A stretch of DNA of 64,000 nucleotides from contig JADGHB010000010.1 of NCBI GenBank assembly GCA_019689635.1, positions 1 to 64,000 on the forward strand, read 5' to 3'. Numbering within the stretch: position 1 is the first letter of the stretch; each line of letters begins with the position of its first letter. The translations under genes and the position numbers were made by a program. The notes under the pieces were generated by a model. The model made no database searches. It worked only from the letters and a program-made list of their open reading frames with translations, and was not told where the DNA came from. Source of the stretch: Nevskia sp. GTDB lineage: Bacteria; Pseudomonadota; Gammaproteobacteria; Nevskiales; Nevskiaceae. Of the stretch, positions 29,185 through 30,069 are shown one piece after another.

Positions 29185-30069
29185 ATGGCGATCACCCTGA
29201 ACCTCGAGGCGCCGCGCCGGGTCGGCGTCGAGGAGCTGATCGACTTCGTCGCGCACGAAATCGATCTGCGCGATCCGCAGAACATCCTCGCGGCCGCGCC
29301 GCTGCTGAGCGGCCTGGCCGAGGACCGCGAGCTGGTGACGCGCCGGCTGAACGAAGAAGTCCGGCGGCTGTTCAAAGGCCCGGCGCTGAGTTCGGCGCAG
29401 TCGCTGTTCCTCGGCGGGGGCAAAGGTTTCTACCTGCGCGCCAACTTGTGGCCCCCCGCCGCCGACATCGCCGGCGGGCTGGTCACTCGCGACCGTTTCT
29501 CCTATGACCTCGCTCACGACCACAACTACAACTTCCTGACCGTCGGTTACTCCGGTCCAGGTTACTGCAGCGACATCTACGAATACGACCGGGAAACGCT
29601 CAGCGGGGAACCGGGCGAGCCCGTGGCGTTGCGCTTCCTGGAGCGAGTGCATTTCCGCACCGGCATGGTGATGTTCTATCGCGCCAGCAAGGACGTGCAC
29701 ATCCAATATCCGCCGGAAGACCTCAGCATCAGTCTCAACCTGATGGTCGCCGACGCGCACACGCGCTTGCGCGATCAATTGTTCTTCGACCTAGAACGGC
29801 GCGTGCTGCTGGACTATCCTGCTTCGGCGGACATCTCCAAGCGCGTCTCCATCCTGCGTCTCGCGGGCCGCATCGGCGACCAGAATACGCGACAGCTCCT
29901 GAGCGATCTGGCAAGCCGCCACCCCTGCCAGCGCACTCGTTGGGCTTGCTACGAAGCGCTGGCCGAGGGCGCGTCATGCACCGCCGCCGTGTGGGAAACC
30001 GCCTGCCGGGATCCCGCGCCGCTGGTCGCCGGACGCGCGCGCCGTCGGCTTGTGACGCTAGCCGCGTGA
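29185..30069 (+). CDS. Uncharacterised cupin-like protein with HEAT-like C-terminus (paralog 2, intact HxH...H motif)
   Basis: HDHNYNFLTVGYSGPGYCSDIYEYD ... GMVMFYRASKDVHIQYPPEDLSISLNLMV followed by helical repeats; GGGAGG SD; start 2 nt after the previous stop. Confidence 0.75.
   Translation: MAITLNLEAPRRVGVEELIDFVAHEIDLRDPQNILAAAPLLSGLAEDRELVTRRLNEEVRRLFKGPALSSAQSLFLGGGKGFYLRANLWPPAADIAGGLVTRDRFSYDLAHDHNYNFLTVGYSGPGYCSDIYEYDRETLSGEPGEPVALRFLERVHFRTGMVMFYRASKDVHIQYPPEDLSISLNLMVADAHTRLRDQLFFDLERRVLLDYPASADISKRVSILRLAGRIGDQNTRQLLSDLASRHPCQRTRWACYEALAEGASCTAAVWETACRDPAPLVAGRARRRLVTLAA

Follow-up and report, generated by a model that had tools for sequence, protein, structure and literature searches.

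Small-molecule thiol dioxygenases combine a three-His iron site with a Ser-His-Tyr motif (PMC8050391, PMC10966181), the iron ligands being H90, H92 and H142 in Av3MDO (PMC8050391), while this motif is absent from ADO and PCO (PMC10966181). Iron enzymes also tailor ribosomal peptides, as does the JmjC-like PbsQ of the Cupin_8/JmjC type, which hydroxylates a RiPP precursor (PMC12257519). The locus considered here lies in a window of 64,000 nucleotides (the whole stretch of DNA analysed) from a 2.8-Mb genome assembly of Nevskia sp. Its positions 28152-30069 probably form a three-gene peptide-modification cassette, made of a small peptide gene and two paralogues, P1 and P2, in which P2 would oxidise the peptide with P1 as its partner in a RiPP-like manner. 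The features of P2 are as follows.

29185..30069, plus strand: P2, a protein of 294 aa with a cupin domain of predicted thiol-dioxygenase fold and HEAT repeats (translation, AlphaFold2, Foldseek, alignment of 47 homologues)
29398..29811, plus strand: beta-barrel domain of P2, residues about 72-209 (AlphaFold2 secondary structure; Foldseek matches to thiol dioxygenases)
29515..29523, plus strand: H111-D112-H113, predicted Fe(II) ligands 1 and 2 (HxH)
29698..29700, plus strand: H172, predicted Fe(II) ligand 3, within a D-x-H-x-Q-x-P-P motif
29731..29745, plus strand: S183-L-N185-L-M187, site of the thiol-dioxygenase Ser-His-Tyr motif, with Ser/Thr retained
29821..30063, plus strand: C-terminal HEAT-like repeats of P2, residues about 213-293 (HEAT_2, alphaRep matches, AlphaFold2 helices)

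The protein quoted in the initial annotation is, in every letter, the translation of the open reading frame at 29185-30069 (plus strand); its ATG start at 29185 is conserved, and the homologues open with M-A. A cupin-like metal site had been proposed there, with structure prediction and a fold search as the means of checking it. The AlphaFold2 model, built with 24 homologues (pLDDT 85.6, pTM 0.81), comprises three N-terminal helices, a beta-barrel and five C-terminal helices, and in Foldseek searches of the PDB the barrel matches the three-His thiol dioxygenases of the cupin superfamily (prob 1.00), which account for almost every one of the top 37 matches. The best matches are to the Pseudomonas aeruginosa thiol dioxygenase (4wvz/4tlf, E 4.2e-7), followed by mercaptosuccinate dioxygenase (8vni, E 5.9e-7) and the Azotobacter vinelandii 3-mercaptopropionate dioxygenase (6xb9, E 1.4e-6), with mammalian CDO and PCO4 also present; TM-scores of 0.5-0.6 to the targets make this a distant match. 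The proposed HDH pair is found at residues 111-113 inside the modelled barrel, and the third His, announced about 60 residues further on, is H172, 59 residues past H113. P2 thus has, at the sequence level, the three-His site of CDO and MDO, and the agreement between the fold matches and the near-invariant His residues strongly supports, on a modelled structure, its assignment as a cupin-superfamily protein with a predicted iron site.

Conservation was counted over 47 homologues from Nevskiaceae, a Legionellales-like order (a label guessed from gene content), Alteromonas, Vibrio and another proteobacterial class. All of them have H111 and H172 (47/47 each), and 46/47 have H113; Q174, R85, W89, G124, G126 and Y127 are likewise found in 47/47, so that the signature cannot be ascribed to chance. 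The Ser-His-Tyr motif gives another picture. Residue 183 is Ser or Thr in all 47 homologues, while the position of the His is taken by Asn in 38, Ser in 8 and Ala in 1 (residue 185; His in 0/47) and Tyr is found at residue 187 in 0/47. With a predicted iron site and no Ser-His-Tyr motif, P2 falls outside the standard thiol dioxygenases; the same pattern is seen in ADO and PCO. The sole exception at H113 is a Nevskiaceae copy (locus L007 in G003) with Asn at the second His (HDNN); the peptide tail of this locus is also deviant (FFFVNCN), and its P2 is possibly decaying or altered.

The C-terminal HEAT-like repeats had been read from the sequence over about 100 aa. HEAT_2 matches, alphaRep matches and the AlphaFold2 helices agree on their nature, but the length is closer to 80 aa, with five helices modelled between residues 217 and 293. 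Pfam HEAT_2 was matched in 24/24 Nevskiaceae homologues of P2 (best E 3.5e-7), the window's own copy scoring E 8.6e-4, under the gathering cut-off. Designed alphaRep repeats, which the C-terminus resembles, were the only sequence relatives of P2 found in the PDB. The HEAT part is small or missing in some distant homologues, such as the 225-aa P2 of Vibrio or the copy at locus L101, which has no Pfam match. Apart from this length, the initial account of the signature proved broadly correct; what the present analysis adds is the fold class, the absence of Ser-His-Tyr, a triad-less paralogue, a wide distribution and a linked peptide gene.

Assignment to a described family was sought in several ways. 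No match to PF05995 (CDO_I) was found in 24 P2 members, and hhalign of P2 against two real members of that family gave a non-significant prob of 0.8. Pfam scans of P1 and P2 returned HEAT families and noise-level matches only, without DUF692 or Cupin_8. The NCBIfam search gave no family for P2, the PADLOC search none beyond a weak HEAT match, and no phage relatives of P2 were found. The literature search likewise gave no paper in which HEAT repeats, a cupin and RiPPs come together. Among the models scanned (Pfam, NCBIfam, PADLOC) and the papers found, none names P1, P2 or the peptide, and the family appears to be undescribed.

P2 is preceded directly by its paralogue.

28358..29182, plus strand: P1, a 274-aa paralogue with N-terminal helices, a thiol-dioxygenase-like barrel and HEAT repeats, without the His triad (AlphaFold2, Foldseek, hhalign, HEAT_2)
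28934..29176, plus strand: C-terminal HEAT repeats of P1, residues 193-273 (Pfam HEAT_2, AlphaFold2)

The AlphaFold2 model of P1 has a pLDDT of 92.2, its top Foldseek matches are those of P2 (best 4tlf, E 5e-8), and its HEAT_2 match lies above the gathering cut-off (E 1.6e-10). BLASTP between the two proteins detects little apart from HEAT; profile comparison by hhalign aligns them over 254 columns (prob 98.1, E 7.7e-14), which makes them full-length paralogues at the profile level. In this alignment a Tyr of P1 faces position 172 of P2, and the triad is missing. P1 is thus probably a non-catalytic partner. Hydroquinone 1,2-dioxygenase PnpCD (4zxd) consists of two cupin-type subunits, one of them iron-bearing, and 4zxd_A is among the fold matches of P1.

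The nearest named records with P2 are Nevskia and Hydrocarboniphaga MAGs. P2 is found in 21/61 close relatives, in 8/143 genomes of the Legionellales-like order and in 15/399 sampled genomes of the phylum (the window's own included), where it occurs mostly in one family of another class (f217, guessed from gene content to be sphingomonad). P1 and P2 are adjacent in every Nevskiaceae pair locus examined, and this adjacency recurs in the Legionellales-like genomes, Alteromonas, Vibrio and f217. Two copies are plasmid-borne. On plasmid pASTE61-200 of Alteromonas stellipolaris (L033), the pair is accompanied by two small upstream ORFs and by flanking ABC-transporter and HlyD genes, the whole being set inside a Dot/Icm-like conjugation gene region. 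On plasmid p1-ED002 of Vibrio sp. ED002 (L034), a short pair, whose P2 lacks HEAT, and a 59-aa Cys-containing ORF have a Tn3-type transposase/recombinase on one side and a SinI-type restriction-modification system on the other. Two adjacent 4HBT (PaaI-like) thioesterase genes, divergent to the cassette, are present in roughly half of the f217 loci (L089, L091, L094-L098 and L100). At L077/L092 (G761), one in-frame TGA was flagged in the P2 frame, possibly a matter of start site or sequencing. In the window, a GGDEF-EAL gene (30058-32214, minus strand) lies tail-to-tail with P2, as in most Nevskiaceae loci (L026, L040, L045, L047, L050, L052); a c-di-GMP link through this convergent gene was rejected because the gene did not turn up as a conserved neighbour outside Nevskiaceae and seems to reflect synteny within that family only.

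Clustering of small ORFs around the pair brought out, in 13 loci, a reading frame upstream of P1, which in the window is a previously unannotated gene.

28152..28289, plus strand: acidic peptide gene, 45 aa, MTTETIEFAGLEYEVASVGATESSNAEENQAAFFVFFYRLPEQVL, candidate precursor or substrate (ORF clustering, profile, ribosome-binding site, dN/dS)

The length of 45 aa is that given by the aligned start, and a GGAG-type ribosome-binding site precedes the ATG. A profile of the peptide retrieved it in 13/61 relatives, all 13 of them pair-bearing; that is, it is present in 13/21 genomes with the pair and in 0/40 without (Fisher p 3e-8). One genome (G006) has two cassettes with one peptide each. The Nevskiaceae peptides share the conserved block LE(I/V)xxLEYDVAxVGATE, followed by a variable C-terminal tail. 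The Legionellales-like loci encode an apparently related peptide, VELDDVSIAGADSTQITAQEEG, on the opposite strand between a Cupin_8/JmjC-type gene and P1; the Cupin_8/JmjC-type gene, which adjoins the peptide in 5/5 such loci tested (L102-L105 and L035), is possibly a second tailoring enzyme there. In the other families, 15/15 loci examined have an ORF of 36-56 aa immediately upstream of P1, its product often carrying LDIxxLPxLDxxxGxFG and then a V/I/Y-rich tail. Peptides of the distant groups were chosen by position and size, so that homology between groups is weaker than within Nevskiaceae; a single peptide family is well supported within groups and only suggested between them. Whatever the group, the genes are tiny (36-58 aa), the layout is a block plus a variable tail, and the median net charge is -8.

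Median dN/dS values in three peptide groups are 0.25 (Nevskiaceae), 0.13 and 0.43, and values below 1 indicate, from sequence comparison, purifying selection on the amino-acid sequence. RBS-like sequences precede 24/33 peptide ORFs against 7.5% of control ATGs, and together with the dN/dS values they identify the small ORFs as genes and not chance frames. As no residue is universal across the groups, no modified residue can be named. Cys is absent from 18/33 peptides, the window's included, residue 2 is never Cys, and a Cys within LEIC is common among the Nevskiaceae peptides. In G036, the peptide gene (L048, 4333-4467) does not precede P1; it follows the GGDEF-EAL gene, some 2.5 kb past P2.

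Eight Nevskiaceae genomes (L014-L021, in G002, G004, G009, G010 and G013-G016) combine the pair and a complete triad with the lack of a recognisable peptide, whether sought with the profile or with a DNA pattern for LEYDV; matches to this pattern lie inside long or unrelated ORFs and were discarded as chance. Residue 185 of P2 is Ser in all eight and Asn in the peptide-bearing Nevskiaceae, and another substrate may thus be used there. With these pair-bearing exceptions, a precursor-type peptide gene stands beside the candidate modifying enzyme, the arrangement expected of a RiPP locus. No linked protease or exporter is conserved in the Nevskiaceae or f217 loci, and neither is present beside the cassette in the window or at most other loci, whereas ABC-transporter genes adjoin the Alteromonas pair.

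In the cassette as proposed, P2 would be a mononuclear non-haem iron enzyme of cysteine/mercaptopropionate-dioxygenase fold that uses O2 and Fe(II), the latter bound by H111, H113 and H172; P1, a paralogue with this fold but without catalytic activity, would pair with it. The pairing, or the binding of the peptide through its acidic conserved block, would fall to the HEAT tails of P1, P2 or both, and P2 would oxidise a residue in the variable tail to yield a RiPP-like product. A peptide substrate, hinted at in the initial annotation by a possible peptide-recognition role of the repeats, gains independent support from the conserved small gene upstream of P1. The possibility that P2 acts instead on a small thiol (cysteine, 3-mercaptopropionate or similar), with the peptide unrelated or regulatory, agrees with the class of its best fold matches, with the common three-His site and with the retention of the triad in the group without peptide. 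It is nevertheless unlikely in view of the missing Ser-His-Tyr motif, the lack of a PF05995 match (also at the hhalign level) and the constant triad-less partner and HEAT tails, which are unlike known members. Nor does Q72 bring P2 closer to that class: this residue, near the Gln of Gln-type enzymes in an uncertain register (shifted by one position when the profiles are aligned), is Gln in 37/47 homologues only, and a Gln-type dioxygenase was dropped as a candidate.

The absence of Ser-His-Tyr would suit an oxygen sensor that, like ADO and PCO, oxidises a Cys thiol in a protein or peptide, and PCO4 among the fold matches and the Cys in LEIC of many Nevskiaceae peptides point in the same direction. 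Since more than half of the peptides are Cys-free, the peptide is an unlikely target of thiol chemistry; another protein may be the target, and the sensor as a whole is judged improbable. Hydrophobic V/I/A tails on many other-family peptides, the lack of dedicated export at most loci and the typical role of HEAT repeats as protein-protein modules could also be read as signs of a non-enzymatic metal-binding or regulatory complex (e.g. a chaperone or immunity complex) for a small membrane-active peptide. To this we attach a low probability, because Q174, R85, W89 and Y127 around the triad are invariant as for an active site and the peptide tails in Nevskiaceae and the Legionellales-like order show no strong hydrophobicity. 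Very unlikely, finally, is a leader or uORF that governs P1-P2 translation without being a substrate: most loci do have the small ORF immediately before P1 in the same orientation, and no modified residue is obvious in it, but it is on the opposite strand in the Legionellales-like loci, 2.5 kb away in G036, and under selection for its amino-acid sequence.

Oxidation of the peptide by P2 with P1 thus remains the preferred reading. It is conceivable, though short of probable, that the cassettes constitute a new RiPP class represented in two or more proteobacterial classes. Two cupin-HEAT proteins of thiol-dioxygenase fold, one active and one dead, would there act as a heteromer and oxidise a short acidic precursor peptide in an O2-dependent reaction, probably not on a thiol. 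If so, the few iron enzymes with a role in tailoring ribosomal peptides would be joined by enzymes of the cysteine-dioxygenase fold, with a chemistry probably other than sulfur oxidation. Since the precursor genes are tiny and none of the Pfam, NCBIfam and PADLOC models scanned names P1, P2 or the peptide, mining tools keyed to known families would miss such cassettes. At about 1.9 kb, the cassette is directly testable by co-expression, and the eight peptide-less genomes, with Ser at residue 185, offer a natural comparison for substrate choice.

Compared with the 3-mercaptopropionate and cysteine dioxygenases (PF05995; 4tlf, 6xb9, 2ic1), P2 is alike in its predicted barrel and in the HxH pair with a distant His, and differs in lacking Ser-His-Tyr and a Pfam match and in having a HEAT tail, a triad-less paralogue and a peptide gene. 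With the N-terminal cysteine oxidases ADO and PCO, which act on peptides or proteins, it would share the fold class, three-His iron and the absence of Ser-His-Tyr; in contrast, an N-terminal Cys is absent from the peptides described here, many of which contain no Cys whatever, and sequence similarity between these enzymes and P2 is not detectable. PnpCD offers a functional parallel, by analogy, for P1 as a dead partner, whereas its substrate is a small aromatic compound, it has neither HEAT nor peptide gene, and no sequence relationship to P1 or P2 is shown. As to RiPP pathways built on MNIO (DUF692) or JmjC-like enzymes (PbsQ/BpmG), P2 is a predicted mononuclear three-His cupin, neither DUF692 nor a 2-oxoglutarate JmjC enzyme, and most loci here lack a transporter or protease, but the two have in common a short precursor gene, an iron enzyme (predicted here), a partner protein and, as proposed here, the oxidation of a peptide.
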